Assembly: GCF_900169485.1 (NCBI RefSeq)
Contig: NZ_LT821227.1
Coordinates: forward strand, 434,001 to 498,000
Source of the DNA: Phoenicibacter congonensis
Lineage (GTDB): Bacteria; Actinomycetota; Coriobacteriia; Coriobacteriales; Eggerthellaceae
DNA: 64,000 nucleotides
Reading direction: 5' to 3'
In this document: piece after piece, positions 25,929 through 39,126 of the stretch
Layout: each line of letters opens with the position of its first letter
How positions within the stretch are numbered: position 1 is the first letter of the stretch
Made by a program: the position numbers and the translations under genes
The notes under the pieces: model-generated
The model's input: the letters and a program-made list of their open reading frames with translations, nothing else
What the model was told of the DNA's origin: nothing
Databases searched by the model: none

Positions 25929-26110
25929 ATACATCTTCAGTAACCCCACAACTGCAAAAACTTCCGAAGATTGCCCCCAAAACTCAAATATAAAAGATTA
26001 AACGCATCGTACAAAGGCAATTGCGCGCACTAATTCTAGGTTTGTCTGTTTATTTCTTCGATGCAAATGTTCGTTTGTTAAATCAGTTATTTGAATGGAA
26101 AGGGGATGTA

Positions 26111-27322
26111 ATGTCAGGTATTAACGTCAAGAGTGAAATTCAGCAACTCAAAAAAGTTCTTCTTCACCGTCCTGGCAAAGAACTTCTCAACCTCACGCCT
26201 GATACTCTTGAGGAATTGCTGTTCGACGATATTCCATTTTTGAAAGTTGCACAAGATGAGCATGACGAATTTGCTCAAGTGTTGCGAGATAATGGCGTGG
26301 AAGTTGTCTATTTGGAAGACCTCATGGCCGAGACTCTCAAGGGAAATCCAGATTTAAAGAAGCAATTCTTAGAGCAGTTTATTGCTGAAGCGGGTGTTTC
26401 TGAGAAGCGCTTGGTTGAAGCATGTTATGAACTTCTTGATGCAATTGAATGCGAAAAAGAACTCGTTTTGAAGACAATGGAAGGCGTCAATGTTGATGAG
26501 CTAGATTTGGATGAGTCGAATTTGTTGTCGGCGCTCACACAGGAAGAATCGCGACTTGTGATCAATCCAATGCCAAATTTATATTTCACGCGAGATCCGT
26601 TTGCAAGCATTGGAAATGGCGTTTCAATCAATCACATGTATTCAGTCACACGCAATCGCGAGACTATTTATGCGGAATATATTTTTAAATATCATCCAGA
26701 TTACAAAGACGTTCCGCAGTATTACGACAGATATGCTGATGTTCACATTGAGGGTGGCGACATCCTAAACATCAACGACCATGTCCTTGCGATTGGTATT
26801 TCGCAGCGCACCCAGGCTGCTGCAATTGACAAAATTGCCGAAAAGATTTTTGATGCTGAGTCTTCTTCCATCGACACGATTTTGGCGTTTGACATTCCAA
26901 ACAATCGCGCGATGATGCACCTCGACACTGTTTTCACTCAAATTGACGTCGATAAATTTACAATTCACCCAGGAATTATGGGAACGCTCACTGTGTTTGA
27001 GTTGAAAAAAGTCGATGGCGTAGTCGAAGTTAGCAAGATCGAAGACACTCTTGAAAATGTTTTGGGTAAATATCTCGAATGTGAAGTGAAACTCATTCCT
27101 TGTGGCGCAGGCAACCGAATTGCTGCAGAGCGCGAGCAGTGGAACGATGGCTCTAACACCCTTTGCATCGCTCCTGGTACAGTTGTTGTTTATGACAGAA
27201 ACGATGTCACTAACGAAGTCTTAAGAGACCACGGAATCACAGTTCTCGAAATTTCAAGTGCTGAACTTTCGCGTGGGCGCGGCGGCCCACGTTGCATGAG
27301 CATGCCTCTTGTGCGCGGATAG
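26111..27322 (+). CDS. arcA: Arginine deiminase
   Basis: Converts arginine to citrulline and ammonia, first step of the ATP-yielding deiminase pathway. 403 residues. Motifs: NLYFTRDPF (about 157-165), HIEGGDIL with the catalytic Glu and Asp, HLDTVFT with the catalytic His, and GGPRCMSMPL with the nucleophilic Cys near the C-terminus. ATG at 26111 has AAAGGGG upstream; the longer frame lacks support. Followed by arcD. Ornithine carbamoyltransferase and carbamate kinase, needed to complete the pathway, are not in the window. Confidence 0.98.
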   Translation: MSGINVKSEIQQLKKVLLHRPGKELLNLTPDTLEELLFDDIPFLKVAQDEHDEFAQVLRDNGVEVVYLEDLMAETLKGNPDLKKQFLEQFIAEAGVSEKRLVEACYELLDAIECEKELVLKTMEGVNVDELDLDESNLLSALTQEESRLVINPMPNLYFTRDPFASIGNGVSINHMYSVTRNRETIYAEYIFKYHPDYKDVPQYYDRYADVHIEGGDILNINDHVLAIGISQRTQAAAIDKIAEKIFDAESSSIDTILAFDIPNNRAMMHLDTVFTQIDVDKFTIHPGIMGTLTVFELKKVDGVVEVSKIEDTLENVLGKYLECEVKLIPCGAGNRIAAEREQWNDGSNTLCIAPGTVVVYDRNDVTNEVLRDHGITVLEISSAELSRGRGGPRCMSMPLVRG

Positions 27323-27356
27323 GGCGCCGAGCAGGCTTTTGAATTCGAAGGTGTAG

Positions 27357-27380
27357 TCTGGCGGGAGAAATTCCGCCAGA
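27357..27380 (+). other. Intercistronic hairpin between arcA and arcD
   Basis: TCTGGCGG (27357-27364) pairs perfectly with CCGCCAGA (27373-27380) around an eight-base loop. AAAACACG, not a T run, follows, so it is more likely an mRNA-stabilising or processing structure than a full terminator. Confidence 0.6.
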
Positions 27381-27409
27381 AAACACGCTAAGAAGGGAAA
27401 GGATCGATT

Positions 27410-28843
27410 ATGAATAAGGGAGTTGGTTTATTTGGCCTAATTGGTATAGTTGTTGGCGCGTGCATTGGCACTGGCGTTTTCGCTATGACTGGCCAAATCG
27501 CGGGCGTAGCTTCGCCTGGCGGTGCTTTAATTGCGTTTGCAATTGTTGGAGTTGGCTTTACCTGCCTTGCTCTTTCACTTGCAAATCTTGGAACAAAAAG
27601 GGCTGATCTCACAGGTGTTTATTCCTATGCGTCTGAAGGGTTTGGTCCTCTTGCTGGATTTATTTCGGGTTGGGGTTACTGGCTTTCTGCTTGGCTTGGT
27701 AATGTCGCCTATGCAACTTTGATTTGTCAAACTATTGGTTATTTCTATCCACCATGGTCGTTCGACGGAGGAATACCAATTCCATGTTTGATTTTTGCCT
27801 CAGTAGTCATGTGGGGCATCACAGGCCTTGTAATTCGAGGAATTGAAAGCGCTTCATTTGTTAATGCGTGCGTCATGGTTGCAAAAATTCTTGGTATCGT
27901 TGTGTTCATTCTTTTCGCTGCCATGTCGTTTAATGCTGGCATTTTGACAGAAGATTTCTGGGGCAACGTTTACAACAATTATGTTGCATCGGGTCAAGCA
28001 GGAGAAGATGCTGTTGGTCTTGGCGGCCTGCCCGAGCAAGTCATTGGCTGTTTTGTGATCATCATGTGGGCATTTATTGGCATTGAAGGAGCGACTGTTT
28101 TGTCATCTCGCGCCAGAGAAAAGCGTCATGTGTCTAAAGCGACCATTCTTGGTCTTTTGATTCTACTTGTTACCTATTTGTGCATGGCAATCATTCCATA
28201 TGGTGTTATGCCCTACACTGAGGTGGCAACACTGAGTTATCCTGCCGCGACATATGTGTTTGAACAAATTATGCCTGGCTTCGGCGGCGGCTTTTTGTCT
28301 GTCGTAATCATTTTCTCAATCATTGGAGCATGGCTGTCATTTACGATTCTTCCAGTCGAAACGGCTCAGGAAATGGCAGAAGACAAGCTGTTGCCAGAAT
28401 ACTGGGGAAAACTCAACAAGTTTAAATCACCATTTATTGGTTTGATCATCGTTGGCATTTGTACTCAAGTCATCATGGTCACGTTAATCGTTTCGGAGGA
28501 CGCCTATAACTTTGCTTTCAGCATGTGTACAGTCGCAATTGTGTTCACATGGACTCTTGCTGCGGCCTACAATCTGAAATATTCGCTAAACAAGAAAAGC
28601 TATGGTCAAGTCGCAATTGCTGCTGTGGCTGTCATCTTCTTTGTAATAGGAACAATTCTCAACGGTTGGGATTTGCTGATGTTAACTTGCATCGGTTATT
28701 TGCCAGGTTTTGTGCTTTACAGTATGGCGCTAAAAAAGCAAGGTAAGTCTTTAACGAGTGGTGAAATAGTAACGATTGTGATATTTGCGATTATTGCAGC
28801 AGGAGCTTTTGTTCTCCTCGGAATGGGAATAATAACAATCTAG
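27410..28843 (+). CDS. arcD: Arginine/ornithine antiporter (APC family)
   Basis: 477-residue inner-membrane exchanger with 12-13 hydrophobic segments. The N-terminal GIVVGACIGTGVFAM is the APC substrate-binding glycine motif, and GWGYWLSAWLGNVAYATL closely resembles ArcD-type antiporters. Position directly after arcA supports arginine/ornithine (or arginine/citrulline) exchange. Start ATG with AAGGGAAAGG upstream. A strong terminator follows at 29021-29053. Confidence 0.92.
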   Translation: MNKGVGLFGLIGIVVGACIGTGVFAMTGQIAGVASPGGALIAFAIVGVGFTCLALSLANLGTKRADLTGVYSYASEGFGPLAGFISGWGYWLSAWLGNVAYATLICQTIGYFYPPWSFDGGIPIPCLIFASVVMWGITGLVIRGIESASFVNACVMVAKILGIVVFILFAAMSFNAGILTEDFWGNVYNNYVASGQAGEDAVGLGGLPEQVIGCFVIIMWAFIGIEGATVLSSRAREKRHVSKATILGLLILLVTYLCMAIIPYGVMPYTEVATLSYPAATYVFEQIMPGFGGGFLSVVIIFSIIGAWLSFTILPVETAQEMAEDKLLPEYWGKLNKFKSPFIGLIIVGICTQVIMVTLIVSEDAYNFAFSMCTVAIVFTWTLAAAYNLKYSLNKKSYGQVAIAAVAVIFFVIGTILNGWDLLMLTCIGYLPGFVLYSMALKKQGKSLTSGEIVTIVIFAIIAAGAFVLLGMGIITI

Positions 28844-31770: not shown

Positions 31771-31820
31771 CGCAGTCACAGTTTCTCTGCGACATTTTAC
31801 ATCTGCGCTGAAAAATCACT

Positions 31821-31832
31821 AGGAGTATATTT
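31821..31832 (+). promoter_or_regulatory. AGGAGTATAT leader motif
   Basis: AGGAGTATATTT, 14 bases before a second, stronger site (AAGGAGG) and the ATG at 31847. The same string precedes three other genes in the window (iorA, 33158, 36110), where it serves as the ribosome site or lies next to one. Confidence 0.4.
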
Positions 31833-31846
31833 ACAAGGAGGCAATC

Positions 31847-32995
31847 ATGCCAGCAGCACCAACAGAACTTCCTCGCACATTTGAGGGATATCAAGAAGCT
31901 CGAAAAGCCGGGTTCATGAAAGTCAAAGATTTCAAGGATAACGGCGGAAAACTTGTGGGTTATCTTTGCACCTATGCTCCCCTTGAGATTGTTGATGCGG
32001 CAGGAGCATCAGCTGTTGGGCTTTGCGGCACTTCTGATGAAGTCATTCCTGCTGCGGAACAGGTTTTGCCAACAAACCTTTGTCCGCTAATTAAATCTAC
32101 CTATGGTTTTGCTTTTACTGACAAATGCCCATATACCTATTTTTCAGACGTCATCATTGGTGAGACAACTTGCGATGGCAAAAAGAAAATGTATGAGCTG
32201 TTGCAAGACATTAAAGACATGTATGTTCTTCGACTTCCTCACGATAGGTCTCGCAGTTGGGCACTTGATGCTTGGAAGCAAGAAATCATTGGCTTAAAAG
32301 AATATCTAGAGAAACGATTTGATATTGCCATCACAGAAGAGCAAATTCGTGAGGCGACAAGAAATCGCAATCGGCTTCGTCAAGCAATTTGTAATCTTTA
32401 TGAGCTGCAGTTAAAAGGCACAACTGCATTTACTTCTGTTGAGTTGCTCAGTGCAATGGCAGCTGGCAGCTTCAATCTTGACGTCAACAATTTCCGTGAG
32501 ACTCTAGAGTCAATGGTTGCAGAGAACAAGGGGAAGTGCAACGAAGAAAATGACAAGAAGAAAAGAATCCTTTTGACAGGTTGTCCTGCAAATGGAGTCA
32601 TTAATAAAGTTGCAAAGTCTATAGATGAAAACGGCGGTGTTATTGTTTGCAGTGATTCATGCACTGGCGAGAGAACTAACCGCATGCAAATCGATCCAGA
32701 TGCTCCAGACATTTATCAGGCGCTTGCTGAGAAATATATTGACATTAATTGCTCAATTATGACGCCAAACAACAGACGCATGGAAAACACAATTGAAATG
32801 TGCAAAAAATATGACGTTGATGGAGTTATTGATCTTGTTCTCAACTGTTGCCACACATTTAATGTTGAAAGTACTCTTATGCAAAAGGCTGTTGAACAAT
32901 CGGGTCTTCCATATCTTAAGCTCGAGACCGACTATTCTCAAAGCGATGCAGGGCAAATCGACACACGCATCGCGGCATTCATTGAAACGATGTAG
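31847..32995 (+). CDS. 2-hydroxyacyl-CoA dehydratase/double-cubane family protein (1)
   Basis: 382 residues of the HgdB/YjiM family (PF06050), which carries [4Fe-4S] or double-cubane [8Fe-9S] clusters and performs ATP-gated low-potential reductions. Cysteine landmarks: GLCGTSDEV near residue 59, [33 protein letters not shown] near 105-117, SDSCTGE, and LNCCHTF. It lacks a partner alpha/beta pair of classical dehydratases, and the [10 protein letters not shown] box is typical of the YjiM/double-cubane group. Own promoter and terminator (33028-33065). Substrate unknown. Confidence 0.88.
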
Positions 32996-33027
32996 ATTAT
33001 TTGAGAATAGACTGATAGATGTAATTT

Positions 33028-33065
33028 GCTCGCCTTGCAGAAATGCGAGGCGGGCATTTTGTTTT
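33028..33065 (+). terminator. Terminator with GAAA tetraloop after first HgdB-like gene
   Basis: A 12-bp stem (33028-33039 with 33044-33055, including two or three G-U pairs) closed by GAAA, followed by ATTTTGTTTT. Confidence 0.82.
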
Positions 33066-33088
33066 GAGGTTTAAAATAAATGGATAGT

Positions 33089-33109
33089 GTCACAGTTCTG
33101 CAATGTGAC
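33089..33109 (+). promoter_or_regulatory. Inverted repeat GTCACA-N9-TGTGAC
   Basis: Located between the first terminator and the second HgdB-like gene; TTTT follows, so it could be an operator or an attenuator. GTCACAGTT also occurs at 31774-31782, upstream of the first gene. AGGAGTATAT (33148-33157) is the ribosome site directly before the ATG at 33158. Confidence 0.4.
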
Positions 33110-33157
33110 TTTTCTGCGCCCACCTGCGCCATGTAATCATCTTGTTTAGGAGTATAT

Positions 33158-34429
33158 ATGACAGATTATCATCCAATGTGGGAAGACTTGGGCATGGACG
33201 TTGAGACGCACGATCAGCTTTGCGCTGTTTTGCCTCAAGCTTTCGGAGACGTTTATTTATCTCAGGAAAATCGACCAGAGGCAATGGCTTTTTGGGACAT
33301 GGTTGTTGGAGAAATTCATGGTATTCGTCCAGCAGAATTAATCGAAGCGCAAAAAAATGGACAAAAAGTGTTCGGAACGTTTTGCGTGTTTGTTCCAGAT
33401 GAGGTCATTATTGCTGCAAATGGCATTGTAACTGGCCTTTGTGGAGGTTCTCAATTTTGGGTTCCAGCTGGTGAAGAAGTGCTTCCAAAGAACACTTGCC
33501 CCCTCATTAAAGCCAGCGTTGGTGCTCGCTTAGGTAGAACTTGCCCATTCTTCCGCATCGCCGACATGTATGTTGGAGAAACAACATGTGATGGCAAGAA
33601 AAAAGCATATGAGATTTTGGCCGAAGACGTGCCAATTCACATCATGGATTTGCCTCAGATGAAGCGCGAATGCGACTACAAAAAGTGGGAAGACGAAATT
33701 CGCAGTTTCATCAAAGTTGTTGAAGACTTTACAGGCAATGAAATTACTGCAGAAAAGCTTGCAGATGCGATTAAAGTTGTTAACGCGAAGCGTGCTGCAA
33801 TGAAGAGAGTTTATGAATGCCGTAAGGCTGAGAAACTTCCAATTTCTGGCAAAGACGTGTTGTTGATGACGCAAATTGCATTCTTTGACGACCCTGCTCG
33901 TTGCGCAGAGATGTGCAACAAACTTGCTGACGAATGTGAGCAGAGAATTGCCGATGGTGTTAGCGTGTTCCCAGCGGGGACGAAGCGCATCATGATTACA
34001 GGCACTCCAATGGCTATTCCAAATTGGAAATTGCATCACATAATTGAAACGAGTGGTGCCGCCGTTGTTTGTGAGGAGTGCTGCACTGGCACACGCTATT
34101 TTGAAAACATGGTTGATGAAAGTGGATCCACGATTGATGAGCAGGTCACAGCACTTTCAAATCGCTACATGATGAACAATTGCGAGTGCTTTACGCCAAA
34201 TCCTGGTCGAAAAGAAGACATTTTGAGACTTGCTAAAGAATACAACGTAGACAGTGTTATTGATGCTCATCTCATGTTCTGCAATCTTTATGACACGGCA
34301 GGACGTGGTGTTTCGCAAGCTCTTGATGAGGCTGGAATTCCATGCCTGACTCTTGAGACTGACTACACCGACAACGATGCAGAGCAATTACGAACTAGAA
34401 TTCAAGCGTTCATTGAGATGCTCGACTAG
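33158..34429 (+). CDS. Double-cubane-cluster anaerobic reductase family protein (2)
   Basis: 423 residues, HgdB/YjiM type. Strong landmarks: MWEDLGMDVETHDQL at the N-terminus, [73 protein letters not shown] and CEECCTGTRYFE. This pattern matches what I know of proteins named double-cubane-cluster-containing anaerobic reductase, whose physiological substrate is still unknown (the studied member reduces small molecules such as acetylene). It is followed closely by DUF3343 and the ATPase activator, as expected for a functional system. Confidence 0.9.
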   Translation: MTDYHPMWEDLGMDVETHDQLCAVLPQAFGDVYLSQENRPEAMAFWDMVVGEIHGIRPAELIEAQKNGQKVFGTFCVFVPDEVIIAANGIVTGLCGGSQFWVPAGEEVLPKNTCPLIKASVGARLGRTCPFFRIADMYVGETTCDGKKKAYEILAEDVPIHIMDLPQMKRECDYKKWEDEIRSFIKVVEDFTGNEITAEKLADAIKVVNAKRAAMKRVYECRKAEKLPISGKDVLLMTQIAFFDDPARCAEMCNKLADECEQRIADGVSVFPAGTKRIMITGTPMAIPNWKLHHIIETSGAAVVCEECCTGTRYFENMVDESGSTIDEQVTALSNRYMMNNCECFTPNPGRKEDILRLAKEYNVDSVIDAHLMFCNLYDTAGRGVSQALDEAGIPCLTLETDYTDNDAEQLRTRIQAFIEMLD

Positions 34430-34449
34430 AACTGGAGTCGAAGGACGAA

Positions 34450-34707
34450 TTGAGCACTAAGTGCTACATTTTAGTTAAAAGTCACACTGAAGGGATGGCG
34501 CTATTTGAGTTTTTGAGGTCTCAAGACTTTGAAGCTCGGGTGGCGCCGTCACCTCGTGAAGCGAGAAGCGAGTGCGGAATGAGTTTACTTTGCAGTTGCG
34601 AGCAAATTGATTCTGCAATGGCATTAGCGCAAAAACATGGTTTAAAGTTTGACAAAAAGATGGAGGTCGAGCAAACTTTCGACATTCACAGGAACAAATT
34701 CTGTTAA
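34450..34707 (+). CDS. DUF3343 putative Se/S-carrier-like protein
   Basis: 85 residues. The family pattern is present: CYILVKSHTEGMALFEFL and the ECGMSLLC cysteine pair, with VAPSPRE between. DUF3343 proteins have been proposed from comparative genomics to act in selenium or sulfur transfer; no reaction is proven. TTG start with AAGGACG upstream, 20 bases after the double-cubane reductase gene. Ends in a cysteine (NKFC). Confidence 0.85.
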   Translation: MSTKCYILVKSHTEGMALFEFLRSQDFEARVAPSPREARSECGMSLLCSCEQIDSAMALAQKHGLKFDKKMEVEQTFDIHRNKFC

Positions 34708-34819
34708 AGGATTCTTTGCAGAATGAGTTGGTGTTTTTTTACAATGTTTGAAGTGGCTCAACTATCCTGTTAGCGTTTTAAAAGGCTTATTTATTAGTGT
34801 GGAAGGCAAAAGAGTTTAA

Positions 34820-35569
34820 ATGTTGGCAATAGGTATTGATATTGGCTCAACTTCTGCAAAAACTGCTGCTGTTAAAGATGGCGACCTTGTTTTTACAAAA
34901 GTTGTTCCAACAGGTTACAACAGTGTAGATGCTGCTGATAGATTAAAAGAAGACCTTTCAAATGCAGGTTATCCAATAGAAGATGCCGACGGAATTGTTG
35001 CCACTGGCTATGGTCGAATTTCAGTTCCATTTGCCGACAGAACAATAACAGAAATCACTTGTCATGGAAAGGGTGCCGCCTTTTTGTTTGAGGGCGACAT
35101 GACAGTAATTGACATTGGTGGACAGGACACAAAAGCAGTGCAGCTTCGCAATGGTCATGTTGATAAATTCCTGATGAATGACAAATGCAGTGCTGGCACA
35201 GGAAAATTTTTGGAAGTAATGGCTAACCGACTTGGGCTCACATTGACAGAGCTTTGTGAACTTGCGAGAAATGGCGAAGAAACACCAATTTCTTCGATGT
35301 GTACTGTGTTCGCGGAAAGTGAAGTAATATCTCTCATTGGAAAAGGAACTCCTCGTGAAAACATTGCTCGCGGTGTAATCGATTCCGTTGTCACAAAAGT
35401 CTGCTCTCTTGTTAATCGCGTAGGCGGAACAAACTTTGCGCTAACTGGTGGGCTTTGTGATGAGAGTTATATCGTTGAGGCTTTGTCAAAAGCACTTGGT
35501 GGGCCTGTTTTAACTTGCCCGAATGCTCGATATGCAGGCGCTATTGGTGCAGCATTGAGCGTTAAATAA
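34820..35569 (+). CDS. BadF/HgdC-type ATPase activator
   Basis: 249 residues, ASKHA-fold ATPase that injects an electron into the HgdB-type partner. GIDIGSTSAKTAAV (ATP phosphate 1, residues 4-17), VIDIGGQDTKAV near 97, and the two cluster-ligating cysteines in NDKCSAGTGKFLE (about 115-127) and SSMCTVFAESEVISL (about 156-170), which form the single [4Fe-4S] cluster across a homodimer. One activator for two HgdB-like proteins suggests it serves both. Confidence 0.94.
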   Translation: MLAIGIDIGSTSAKTAAVKDGDLVFTKVVPTGYNSVDAADRLKEDLSNAGYPIEDADGIVATGYGRISVPFADRTITEITCHGKGAAFLFEGDMTVIDIGGQDTKAVQLRNGHVDKFLMNDKCSAGTGKFLEVMANRLGLTLTELCELARNGEETPISSMCTVFAESEVISLIGKGTPRENIARGVIDSVVTKVCSLVNRVGGTNFALTGGLCDESYIVEALSKALGGPVLTCPNARYAGAIGAALSVK

Positions 35570-35572
35570 AGG

Positions 35573-35599
35573 TTATTCTCTCATTAAATTTGAGAATAA
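35573..35599 (+). other. Intercistronic hairpin
   Basis: TTATTCTC (35573-35580) pairs with GAGAATAA (35592-35599) between the activator and the YedF-like gene; no T run follows. Confidence 0.4.
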
Positions 35600-35631
35600 A
35601 TAAAAACACTCTCTAACGAAAGGAAGAAACA

Positions 35632-35970
35632 ATGAGTGGAAAAGTAGTTTTGATTGCAACAGACAAAATGGGTCATGGCGACGATGTGCTTGGAAAAAAA
35701 CTCATGAAAGCATTTACATATGCATTGAGTGAGGCTGAGGAACTCCCATCACACGTTCTTCTTTATAACGGTGGTGCATTTCTTTCACAAGAAGGTGCAG
35801 AAACTGTTGAGGACCTTAAAAAGCTCGAAGAAAAGGGTGTTGAGATTCTCACATGCGGCACATGCACAGAGTTCTTTGAGATTTCAGAAACTGTTGCAGT
35901 AGGATCAATCACCAACATGTATGAAATCGTTGAGATTTGCACTGAAGCAGACAGCGTTATTCGCCCATAG
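35632..35970 (+). CDS. YedF-like DsrE-fold protein lacking the TusA domain
   Basis: 112 residues. The sequence corresponds to the C-terminal DsrE-like half of the selenium-metabolism protein YedF: KMGHGDDVLGKKLMKAF, LLYNGGAFL and EKGVEILTCGTCTEFF, with the CGTC pair. Full YedF proteins are about 200 residues with an N-terminal TusA/SirA domain; that domain is absent and the AAGGAAG site directly precedes this ATG, so the short form is genuine. Together with DUF3343 it suggests a persulfide or selenium relay serving the reductase; inference only. Confidence 0.85.
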   Translation: MSGKVVLIATDKMGHGDDVLGKKLMKAFTYALSEAEELPSHVLLYNGGAFLSQEGAETVEDLKKLEEKGVEILTCGTCTEFFEISETVAVGSITNMYEIVEICTEADSVIRP

Positions 35971-36097
35971 TTGTTTTTTATAATGGTTAGCGGTTGCATA
36001 CTGATGATATGAGTAAACCAATCATCAATTTTTTAGTGAAGTTCGGCATTTTTTGTGTATAGTTCTTTTAGTTACTTTAGACATTAAAAATAAGTAA

Positions 36098-36109
36098 AGG
36101 AGTATATAT
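36098..36109 (+). promoter_or_regulatory. AGGAGTATATAT ribosome site of the ferredoxin gene
   Basis: AGGAGTATATAT ends directly before the ATG at 36110. The same string precedes the gene at 33158 and lies in the leaders of iorA and the gene at 31847. Confidence 0.5.
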
Positions 36110-36298
36110 ATGCCACGTCCAATTCTTGACACTACAGAATGCATCGCTTGCGAAGTTTGTGTTGAAGCTTGCCCACAAGGTGTTCTTGCTGTGAAAAGCG
36201 ACGTCGTAGAAGTGGTAGACGAAGAGAGCTGCATCGGCTGCGGCGACTGCATGGAGGAGTGCCCAATGGGGTGCATCACAGAGATTCAGGAAGACTAG
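36110..36298 (+). CDS. 2[4Fe-4S] ferredoxin
   Basis: 62 residues with CIACEVCVEACP (about 11-22) and CIGCGDCMEECP (about 41-52), the two full CxxCxxCxxxCP cluster motifs of clostridial-type ferredoxins. Acidic protein, soluble. As last gene of the reductase region it is a plausible electron donor to the ATPase activator. A strong terminator follows. Confidence 0.93.
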   Translation: MPRPILDTTECIACEVCVEACPQGVLAVKSDVVEVVDEESCIGCGDCMEECPMGCITEIQED

Positions 36299-36327
36299 TT
36301 CCTGCTTTCTTCTAACACCAACTTTTC

Positions 36328-36355
36328 AAAGAGGCTCGTATGAGCCTCTTTTTTT
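36328..36355 (+). terminator. Terminator after the ferredoxin gene
   Basis: AAAGAGGCTC (36328-36337) pairs with GAGCCTCTTT (36342-36351), four-base loop GTAT, then a T run. Confidence 0.9.
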
Positions 36356-36392: not shown

Positions 36393-37155
36393 GTTCTTGC
36401 TCTCTTCTTAAGAATTGCGCTTGATTTGGGCCTGTGCCCGAGCTTGAGCAAGGTCGCATATGCTGAATAACAAACCACAGTCACAACTGATACAGCTGTT
36501 CAACAGGAGGAAAAAACTGCTCCCCAAGATCAAGCTCAGAATTCACAGACTGTGGATGAGCAAAAAAACTCCGTTGAGATGCCTTATGTTGTTGCCCCAG
36601 GTGCAGGCTATCACGATGCTCTTGGCGCTGGCAGCTATGCAGCCGCAAAGAAAGAATTTATTCTTCTTGTGAACCACGATGGCGACAATTCTTAAAATGG
36701 TCGAAAAGGCAAAAGCACATGAGTCGGCAACAATTCTCAGGGGAAAGTTCGCTGTGCCTGCTCAAGTTGAGGCTTGCCTTAATAACGCTGGTGTCAAAGC
36801 AACCCGCATCGCAGGTGATGATGCATACGAGACGAATTTTAAGTTCGTAGGAAATGCTCTAAAAGTTGGACTAACTCTTGATAATGTAGGAGTTAGCTCT
36901 GGGCTTGGATATTATGACGCTCTTGGTTCGTCGCACATCTTGGGCAAGTCAAACAGTGTTATGTTCCTTGTTTCAAAGGACGAATCGTTGAACCAGAAGG
37001 CATATGACATGCTGAAAAACTCCCGGGTACCGCTCTATAAAGCACGTGTCTTCGGTGGACAAGCTGTTATCACTGATGAAACAGTTGGCAAGATTGATGG
37101 AAAACCTCGAATAGGGCAATTTTGGAAACTATTAGCGAAAGAATTGACTAAATAG
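36393..37155 (+). pseudogene. Decayed cell-wall-binding repeat 2 (CWB2) protein
   Basis: Three pieces of one former secreted protein. Codons from 36393 read like the hydrophobic end of a signal peptide finishing in KVAYAE, then TAA at 36468. The same frame continues from 36471 with a Gln/Thr-rich linker and GYHDALGAGSYAAAKKEF, then stops at 36693. A shifted frame from about 36679 to 37155 carries the CWB2 part: LRGKFAVPAQVEACL, TRIAGDDAYETN, SSGLGYYDALG, RVFGGQAVI. So there is at least one nonsense codon, one frameshift and no intact start. CWB2 domains bind surface polymers and are abundant in Coriobacteriia. Its terminator is still present. Confidence 0.75.
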
Positions 37156-37643: not shown

Positions 37644-38696
37644 TTAGCAAATGCGAGGCAGCAAATCGCCAACTAACATGTCGAGTATTCGTTTTGAGCC
37701 GAGAGCGGTTTTGACCAAAACTCGTGCACCTGCTTCACTGTTAGTTGCCTCAAATGTTTTGCCAATAATGGCAGCGTCGCGCCCATATTCATTCAACTTG
37801 CATGCTGCAAGAGCAGCCTCTGCTTCACTCTCTGGAACAACAATAACGAATTTGCCTTCGTTTGCAACTTGATAAACATCAAAGCCAAGCATTTCGCATG
37901 CGCCTGCCACTTCCGGTTTGACAGGCACTTTCGTTTCGTCTATCTCGATTGAAACGCCACTCATTTGAGCAAATTCATTTAGAGTTGAAGCGAGGCCTCC
38001 TCGAGTTGGATCTCGGAAGCAAACCGTGTGAGGAGCTGCTTTCAAAACGTCAGCAACGAGATGATTTAGTGGTGCCGCATCAGTTTTGAGGTTATTTGTG
38101 AAATTTAAGTTTTCACGCTGCGACATTATGGTGATTCCGTGGTCTCCAAGAGAACCCGAGACAATCACACTCATGTTTGGTTCGATGTTGCGCGCAGTTA
38201 ATTCAACACCTTCAGGAATGATTCCAATCCCCGATGTGTTGATGTAAATTCCGTCGCACTTTCCTTTGTTCACAACTTTAGTGTCACCTGTGACGACTTC
38301 CACACATGCTTCGTCAGCTGCGTCTTTAATGGAATGGCAAATTTTCTTCAAGTCATCAATTGGGAAGCCTTCCTCCAAAATAAAGGCTACAGAAATTGCG
38401 ACTGGAATTGCACCCGCCGTTGAGACATCGTTTACTGTTCCGCACACCGCTAAGCGCCCAATGTCGCCGCCTGGAAAAAATTGAGGAGTTACTACAAAAG
38501 AATCGGTTGAATAGGAGACCTTAAAGTTTCCACTAATTCCACGGGTCTTTGCGATTGATACAAGGTCTAATGCAGCCGCATCGTCGCTTGTCTTTAGCTC
38601 ATCTTTCGCGTATTCTGCCTTAAACACCTCATCTATCAGGTGCTCCATCATCGAACCACCGCTGCCGTGCCCCATCATTATTGTTTCATTAACCAT
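37644..38696 (-). CDS. hypE: Hydrogenase maturation protein HypE
   Basis: Dehydrates the carbamoylated C-terminal cysteine to thiocyanate, source of the CN ligands of the [NiFe] site. 350 residues ending in LPRIC, the obligatory C-terminal Cys. GHGSGGSMMEHL, TDSFVVTPQFFPGGDIGRLAVCGTVND, TGDTKVV and RDPTRGGLA confirm HypE rather than its relative SelD (no N-terminal selenium-site Cys/Sec). ATG 38696 overlaps the nikR stop by eight bases; the frame extends further but inside nikR. hypCDF and hydrogenase genes are not in the window. Confidence 0.96.
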   Translation of the reverse strand: MVNETIMMGHGSGGSMMEHLIDEVFKAEYAKDELKTSDDAAALDLVSIAKTRGISGNFKVSYSTDSFVVTPQFFPGGDIGRLAVCGTVNDVSTAGAIPVAISVAFILEEGFPIDDLKKICHSIKDAADEACVEVVTGDTKVVNKGKCDGIYINTSGIGIIPEGVELTARNIEPNMSVIVSGSLGDHGITIMSQRENLNFTNNLKTDAAPLNHLVADVLKAAPHTVCFRDPTRGGLASTLNEFAQMSGVSIEIDETKVPVKPEVAGACEMLGFDVYQVANEGKFVIVVPESEAEAALAACKLNEYGRDAAIIGKTFEATNSEAGARVLVKTALGSKRILDMLVGDLLPRIC

Positions 38697-39126
38697 GATG
38701 GTGACCTTTGTCTTCATGAATTGCGGTGAGAACGAGTTTTCCAGTGTCGACGCCTTTTGTTCCCATAATTTTGTCGGCAATCAGGCGAACAACTTCGTTT
38801 TCGCCGCGCAAAATGATGACCTCAAGGCAAGAATGTGGGTCAACATGCACATGGGTTGTCGAGATGATGTTTGGGCAAAATTGATGCTGGATTTCGTGCA
38901 AGCGATCGCTCAGGTCATTTGAGTGATGATTGTATGCAATTGTTAGTGTGCCAATCACTTGTGTGTCGGGCACTGAAATTTCTTGTTCCTGAATTGCATC
39001 GCGAACGAGGTCGCGAATCACTTCCGAGCGGTTTGTTCCATCTCCTCTGCGTGCAACCAGTTTGTCAAGTTTAAGACAAAGTTCCTGGGGCATTGCAACT
39101 GAAAATCTGATTAGGTCTCCGTTCAT
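38689..39126 (-). CDS. nikR: Nickel-responsive regulator NikR
   Basis: 145 residues: N-terminal ribbon-helix-helix (RFSVAMPQELCLKLDKLV, about 7-24), C-terminal ACT-like nickel domain with His/Cys ligands in THVHVDPHSCLEVIILRG, and a histidine-rich end (HEDKGHHHG). Represses nickel uptake and may control hypE, with which it overlaps. A near-palindrome overlaps its -10 box. Divergent from pyrG. Confidence 0.96.
   Translation of the reverse strand: MNGDLIRFSVAMPQELCLKLDKLVARRGDGTNRSEVIRDLVRDAIQEQEISVPDTQVIGTLTIAYNHHSNDLSDRLHEIQHQFCPNIISTTHVHVDPHSCLEVIILRGENEVVRLIADKIMGTKGVDTGKLVLTAIHEDKGHHHG

Follow-up and report, generated by a model that had tools for sequence, protein, structure and literature searches.

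A double-cubane cluster protein locus of Phoenicibacter congonensis that probably belongs to selenium metabolism

Introduction

Why would the genes for a nitrogenase-like iron-sulfur reductase powered by ATP lie beside those for small thiol proteins linked to selenium and sulfur handling? The question is raised by a group of six genes in a 64,000-nucleotide stretch of the genome of Phoenicibacter congonensis, a gut-type anaerobe (contig NZ_LT821227.1, positions 434,001 to 498,000), referred to here as the window, whose own numbering is used below. An earlier note, made from the sequence alone, described two double-cubane-type proteins, one shared ATPase activator, a DUF3343 protein, a YedF-like protein and a ferredoxin, and read them as a single system. 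All six are indeed present, with strong profile matches, and the motifs quoted for them (a 10-residue box in both large proteins, CGTC and ECGMSLLC) are found in the translations. According to PMC11971306, no biological function has been established for double-cubane cluster proteins (DCCPs); PMC13188914 likewise treats the source of selenium for SelD in vivo as unsettled. Here, we describe a selenium-linked module that is authentic and conserved rather than a chance neighborhood. The near-exclusive co-occurrence of DCCP with SelD, tested against a control, together with gene clusters that also hold a selenocysteine (Sec) lyase, YedF and DUF3343, merges these two questions into one testable hypothesis.

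The proteins of the locus

The six genes all lie on the + strand between 31847 and 36298, and their family matches are well above chance:

31847..32995, +, DCCP-A (382 residues), in a selenium-cluster clade (PF06050, NF040772, AlphaFold model, conserved cysteines, tree)
33158..34429, +, DCCP-B (423 residues), in a clade with DUF3343-adjoining members (NF040772, structure match, conserved cysteines, tree)
34450..34707, +, DUF3343/Se_S_carrier protein (85 residues), TTG start (PF11823; invariant C42-G43, C-terminal C85)
34820..35569, +, BadF/HgdC-type ATPase activase (PF01869, TIGR00241)
35632..35970, +, YedF, DsrE-like half only, with CGTC motif (TIGR03527 profile positions 86-194)
36110..36298, +, 2[4Fe-4S] ferredoxin, an uncertain member of the system (PF00037 and related profiles)

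Judged from sequence, both large proteins are double-cubane cluster proteins, for which ATP-dependent reduction at an [8Fe-9S] cluster is predicted. Against the equivalog profile NF040772 (cut-off 350 bits), DCCP-A scores 471.8 bits and DCCP-B 482.0 bits, the two being 32% identical. The fold is supported by a model for DCCP-A and by sequence for DCCP-B: the AlphaFold model of DCCP-A (predicted local distance difference test score, pLDDT, 91) matches DCCP 7yzm_A with Z 49.2 and a root-mean-square deviation of 1.9 over 372 residues, and DCCP-B aligns along its entire length with the structure of the Carboxydothermus hydrogenoformans DCCP (E 4e-137). There is also a dedicated activase. The six double-cubane cysteines, on whose conservation the earlier note had staked its reading, are invariant in an alignment of 58 DCCPs from Coriobacteriia (58/58). 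They are C41, C79, C109, C272, C302 and C335 in DCCP-A, and C76, C114, C144, C309, C342 and C375 in DCCP-B. These positions were transferred from the BzdN ligands C36/73/100/263/293/327 (PMC11971306) via the alignment with solved relatives, with BzdN C293 assigned to DCCP-B C342 by the invariant column, the raw alignment being two residues off.

In a tree of 149 sequences, built by a quick method and with long branches, DCCP-B falls in an 86-row clade (Shimodaira-Hasegawa-like approximate likelihood ratio test, SH-aLRT, 98), 82 rows of which are DUF3343-adjacent; the C. hydrogenoformans DCCP lies outside this clade. DCCP-A falls in a 16-row clade (99) that consists mostly of selenium-cluster DCCPs. 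The same genome encodes a third DCCP with its own activase (C1:1053658-1055661, C1 being the single contig of this 1.448-Mb genome), which groups with the Escherichia coli DCCP, YjiM (98).

The activase of the locus scores 260.6 bits against TIGR00241 (cut-off 125.4); its closest solved relatives are HgdC (1hux, 197 bits) and the DCCP reductase (DCCP-R) of C. hydrogenoformans (7yyl_E, 141 bits), of which HgdC is the nearer. The YedF-like protein scores 146.7 bits against TIGR03527 (cut-off 110), has a DsrE-like domain and keeps the CGTC motif that is conserved in the alignment. As had been claimed, it lacks the TusA half, i.e., the N-terminal TusA/SirA domain with CPxP, since only positions 86-194 of the profile are matched. 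A sequence search found no solved structural relatives of this YedF half. Elsewhere in the genome, a separate TusA-like open reading frame (C1:758441-758644) adjoins YedE, and YedF is therefore divided between two genes in this genome.

The DUF3343 protein belongs to the carrier family PF11823 (53.8 bits, cut-off 25). Its C42 is invariant in 73 aligned sequences, and the CG pair is kept in 123/123 DUF3343 proteins examined. Copies encoded directly 3' of a DCCP gene end in cysteine in 65 of 78 cases, mostly as -[RK][YF]C, compared with 2/45 for other copies. The protein is predicted to adopt a ferredoxin-like beta-alpha-beta-beta-alpha-beta fold with a tail of low confidence, which is what a mobile arm would give in such a model. 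A fold search returned no specific match; the best rows, at Z about 8, include the UreE C-terminal domain and heavy-metal-binding domains. The modeled fold appears to be only the common ferredoxin-like arrangement, and we reject it as a clue to function.

The ferredoxin is a weaker candidate. The earlier note had made it part of the system, a claim that did not hold up in relatives: it is not seen as a conserved neighbor at the Coriobacteriia loci and DCCP-B loci compared. A rare leader, AGGAGTATATWT, is common to the ferredoxin and both DCCP genes, and hints that the ferredoxin may belong after all.

Association with selenium genes

The single-system reading predicted that these families neighbor one another in other genomes, and they do. 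We compared 80 DCCP-B loci, which are the best matches to DCCP-B and hence a biased set, and in which short contigs make all neighbor counts lower bounds. The loci span Lachnospiraceae, Oscillospiraceae, Peptostreptococcaceae, Peptoniphilaceae, Synergistota and others. DUF3343 adjoins DCCP-B in at least 73 of them, always on the same strand, the activase in at least 57, a TIGR01977-type cysteine desulfurase/Sec lyase in at least 44, and YedF in at least 13. YedF is thus among the rarer neighbors, along with SelD, SelA, SelB, YedE, TusA, YqeB and LysR NF040786, a curated selenium-metabolism family.

In the sister genera Eggerthella and Cryptobacterium, the matching genes form one cluster that runs from selD to selA-selB (loci L075-L077 and L115; the genomes are G004, which we take to be Cryptobacterium curtum, and G070, presumably Eggerthella lenta). 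In L075 and L076, selD comes first; next, encoded on the other strand, are DCCP-B, DUF3343, YedF, Sec lyase, DUF3343 and activase; selA and selB close the cluster. The window retains the DCCP-B, DUF3343, activase and YedF portion of this block.

The selenium gene set of P. congonensis is distributed over four genome sites. The earlier note had found no selD, and the window indeed has none; the gene lies elsewhere in the genome (G000:C1:1093889-1094830), contains a TGA codon in frame and is part of a selA-selB-selC-selD cluster. The Sec-decoding trait is complete: TIGR00474 (543.9 bits), TIGR00475 (391.6 bits), tRNA-Sec, and TIGR00476 (352.6 bits, with one TGA). YedE (TIGR04112, 449 bits) is encoded in a second island together with the TusA-like protein, a second DUF3343 and a relative of the SclA-type lyase; the last, a cysteine desulfurase of the TIGR01977/SclA group, scores 370.6 bits, slightly below the 377 cut-off. 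With selD and the full Sec-decoding set in the genome, the selenium link is stronger than had been claimed.

DCCP also tracks SelD across genomes. Among 149 evenly drawn Bacillota genomes, SelD was found in 52/53 genomes with DCCP and in 52/96 without; the figures were 28/39 for genomes with only other PF06050-type (HGD-D) hits and 24/57 for those with none. As a control, RnfB, a marker of anaerobic energy metabolism, showed no link with SelD (65% against 76%, p=0.16), on which ground we rejected the idea that an anaerobic lifestyle alone explains the association. In Coriobacteriales, SelD was found in 24/24 genomes with DCCP and in 12/29 without; conversely, DCCP occurs in 24/36 genomes with SelD and in 0/17 without, and the 36 genomes with SelD are precisely those that have YedF and DUF3343. 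Within a single genus (g16), DCCP is present in 8/8 genomes with SelD and in 0/4 without. SelD was likewise found in 49/50 genomes picked for a DCCP-B locus. The association extends to the other families: among the 53 Bacillota genomes with DCCP, all have a member of the TIGR01977 lyase family and 49 have DUF3343, and within SelD-positive Bacillota the lyase family is present in 52/52 genomes with DCCP, compared with 42/52 without.

Fourteen control genomes were also searched: matches to DCCP and to DUF3343 are confined to E. coli and Methanocaldococcus jannaschii, while SelD is above its cut-off in 2/14.

A possible reductive arm of selenium supply

From these associations, the DCCP locus probably belongs to selenium metabolism. 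As for what it does there, we tentatively propose, with rather less assurance, that it uses ATP to reduce zero-valent selenium held on a carrier, giving selenide for SelD. The locus would then be the reductive arm of the cellular selenium-supply system. The SclA-type Sec lyase/cysteine desulfurase, encoded elsewhere in the genome, would yield a zero-valent atom of selenium or sulfur in protein-bound form; this atom would be passed onward by TusA and the DsrE-like half of YedF; and DUF3343 would bring it into the double-cubane protein on its conserved cysteine or its C-terminal cysteine. Ferredoxin would charge the ATP-driven activase, which would drive low-potential electrons into the [8Fe-9S] cluster, and the cluster would reduce the bound atom and free selenide for SelD. 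We infer which way the atom travels, what the substrate is, where the electrons come from and that DUF3343 acts like DsrC; the sequence fits delivery of selenium or sulfur to the cluster and to a substrate equally well. One reason for choosing this reaction is thermodynamic: the potential of the Se(0)/HSe- couple, about -0.43 V at pH 7, is similar to that of ferredoxin and lower than that of thioredoxin. Ferredoxin would thus fit as the electron donor.

Several observations weigh against a role in selenium supply. The Fisher p-values for the association with SelD (1e-9 and 2e-6) treat genomes as independent and are hence too small. DCCP occurs without detected SelD in three Coriobacteriia metagenome-assembled genomes (MAGs), one Bacillota genome and one Synergistaceae MAG, all of them drafts, with the three Coriobacteriia less than 90% complete. 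About half of SelD-positive Bacillota have no DCCP, and SelD therefore does not need DCCP. In the Bacillota sample, which is unbiased, a DUF3343 gene immediately 3' of DCCP was seen in only 12 of 53 DCCP genomes (a lower bound), so tight pairing is a trait of the DCCP-B clade rather than of all DCCPs, and many Coriobacteriia DCCPs outside Coriobacteriales adjoin an activase only. YtiA, the DUF3343 protein of the corresponding E. coli locus (see below), has no C-terminal cysteine. Finally, the substrates that the characterized DCCP reduces in vitro are acetylene, hydrazine and azide (PMC11971306), and selenium substrates are not reported in the text available.

Alternative explanations

The presence of a desulfurase and a C-terminal-cysteine carrier next to DCCP-B could also mean that these proteins deliver sulfide to assemble the [8Fe-9S] cluster, with the DCCP acting on an unrelated substrate. 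The double cubane has one bridging sulfur beyond two [4Fe-4S] units (PMC11971306), for which such a supply might be used. DCCPs of other clades, including the third copy of this genome and many in Coriobacteriia, have no adjoining carrier or desulfurase, and sulfide delivery would leave unexplained both the tie between DCCP and SelD and the YedE, SelD, LysR_Sec_metab and YqeB neighbors; we consider it unlikely. A variant in which selenium itself enters the cluster, i.e., a selenide-bridged double cubane [8Fe-8S-Se] loaded by Sec lyase and DUF3343 in DCCPs of this clade, is a long shot. If true, it would account for DCCP being nearly confined to SelD-positive genomes and would join selenocysteine, selenouridine and the Se-dependent molybdenum hydroxylases as a biological form of selenium.

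Fairly unlikely, too, is an ordinary catabolic or detoxifying reductase of small molecules whose link to SelD is indirect, e.g., through a shared amino-acid-fermenting lifestyle. Many SelD-positive genomes without DCCP, the small non-selenium substrates reduced in vitro (PMC11971306) and the distance of some DCCP clades from selenium genes all point this way, but the RnfB control shows no link to SelD, other HGD-D proteins show a weaker one (28/39), and the clustering with SelD, Sec lyase and YedF recurs. The genomic evidence for selenide supply would serve identically for reductive splitting of C-Se bonds in organoselenium compounds (e.g., selenosugars or methylselenides), the product of which would be taken up by the carriers, and a low-potential, ATP-driven family is suited to unreactive bonds. 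Nevertheless, no small-molecule transporter or organoselenium-specific gene is conserved at DCCP-B loci, where the conserved neighbors are protein carriers, and we regard this chemistry as quite improbable. Identification of the two large proteins as a 2-hydroxyacyl-CoA dehydratase or a benzoyl-CoA reductase is extremely improbable. Both of these share the PF06050 superfamily with DCCPs and use a BadF/HgdC-type activator; however, the locus has no CoA-transferase or acyl-CoA gene. The proteins score 116.2 and 105 bits, against 700, for the dehydratase (HadBC/HgdAB), and 87.3 and 99.6 bits, against 453.8, for the reductase (BzdN/BzdO, BcrC/BcrB), and all six cysteines are kept in both, on which grounds we rejected these assignments.

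Organization of the locus

Four further features lie between the genes or in their leaders:

31821..31832, +, leader motif AGGAGTATATTT, 5' of DCCP-A
33027..33056, +, terminator-like hairpin between DCCP-A and DCCP-B, a 13-bp stem followed by TTTTGTTTTG (consensus scan only)
33148..33159, +, leader motif AGGAGTATATAT, 5' of DCCP-B
36098..36109, +, leader motif AGGAGTATATAT, 5' of the ferredoxin

The hairpin is strong, and a single transcript across the six genes is therefore not to be assumed. Exact copies of AGGAGTATATWT number four in the whole genome: those in the DCCP-A, DCCP-B and ferredoxin leaders, and one on the - strand (G000:C1:1089859-1089870) in the leader of a hydrogenase-4/formate-hydrogenlyase-like membrane operon adjoining selA, where it lies 3' of a TATAAT. 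This leader may mark co-regulated genes. A shared operator-like repeat 5' of DCCP-A and DCCP-B (GTCACAGTT..) was discarded, its frequency not being above chance. A search for riboswitches and other known RNAs gave no Rfam match at gathering score anywhere in the window.

The locus is flanked on its 5' side (26021-28843) by what we take, from sequence, to be an arginine deiminase gene followed by an amino-acid antiporter-like gene. On the 3' side, a frame-broken remnant of a cell-wall-binding-2 (CWB2) protein follows the ferredoxin (36440-37155). Beyond it, hypE (37644-38780, -) and a NikR-type nickel regulator (38689-39126, -) are arranged head to tail, apart from other hyp genes within the stretch examined.

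Comparison with known systems

Parts of this gene set have been noted before. In the available text of Haft and Self 2008 (PMC2276186), YedF and the TIGR01977 lyase are placed before selenophosphate synthesis. In Table 1 of Zhang 2015 (PMC5322559), an activase and a 2-hydroxyglutaryl-CoA dehydratase subunit are given as partners of YedF, Sec lyase and DUF3343 in Slackia heliotrinireducens, a member of Coriobacteriia; the available passages of that paper do not discuss these two partners. Our set shares the YedE, YedF, DUF3343, Sec lyase and SelD families with both studies, but in their available text the dehydratase-like protein is neither called a DCCP nor given a role, and there is no genome-wide test of DCCP against SelD. 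The Methanococcus maripaludis selenium proteome paper does not mention these dehydratase-like proteins. We found no publication assigning DCCP a role in selenium metabolism, in a search that most subscription papers fell outside.

The yjiM-yjiL-ytiA genes of E. coli K-12, a SelD-positive organism, are a minimal version of the system (L212; NC_000913.3, 4563668-4565850): they encode DCCP (YjiM, NF040772, 531 bits), activase and DUF3343 (YtiA, PF11823, 48.9 bits, listed as an uncharacterized protein in the record) in one operon-like run. They differ from the locus described here in that YjiM belongs to another DCCP clade than either DCCP-B or DCCP-A and has no adjoining lyase or YedF. The accessible literature yielded no function for yjiM, yjiL or ytiA.

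The proposed pathway also resembles the Tus/Dsr sulfur relay, in which persulfurated DsrE hands sulfur to the penultimate cysteine of DsrC, thought to serve DsrAB (PMC3397948). In the proposed order, both would have a desulfurase, TusA, a DsrE-fold protein, a carrier with a cysteine at its C-terminal end, and an iron-sulfur reductase. The likeness is by analogy one of arrangement, not of homology or membership: DUF3343 has no NCBIfam match and, by the profiles used, is not a homolog of DsrC/TusE, the resemblance being functional only, and the reductase here is ATP-driven and unrelated to DsrAB. Another of the closest known systems is the DCCP:DCCP-R system of C. hydrogenoformans (6eno, 7yyl, 7yzm), with which the locus shares the fold, the six cluster cysteines and an ATP-driven BadF-type activase; in P. 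congonensis, two DCCPs accompany one activase, and DUF3343 and YedF are linked to them.

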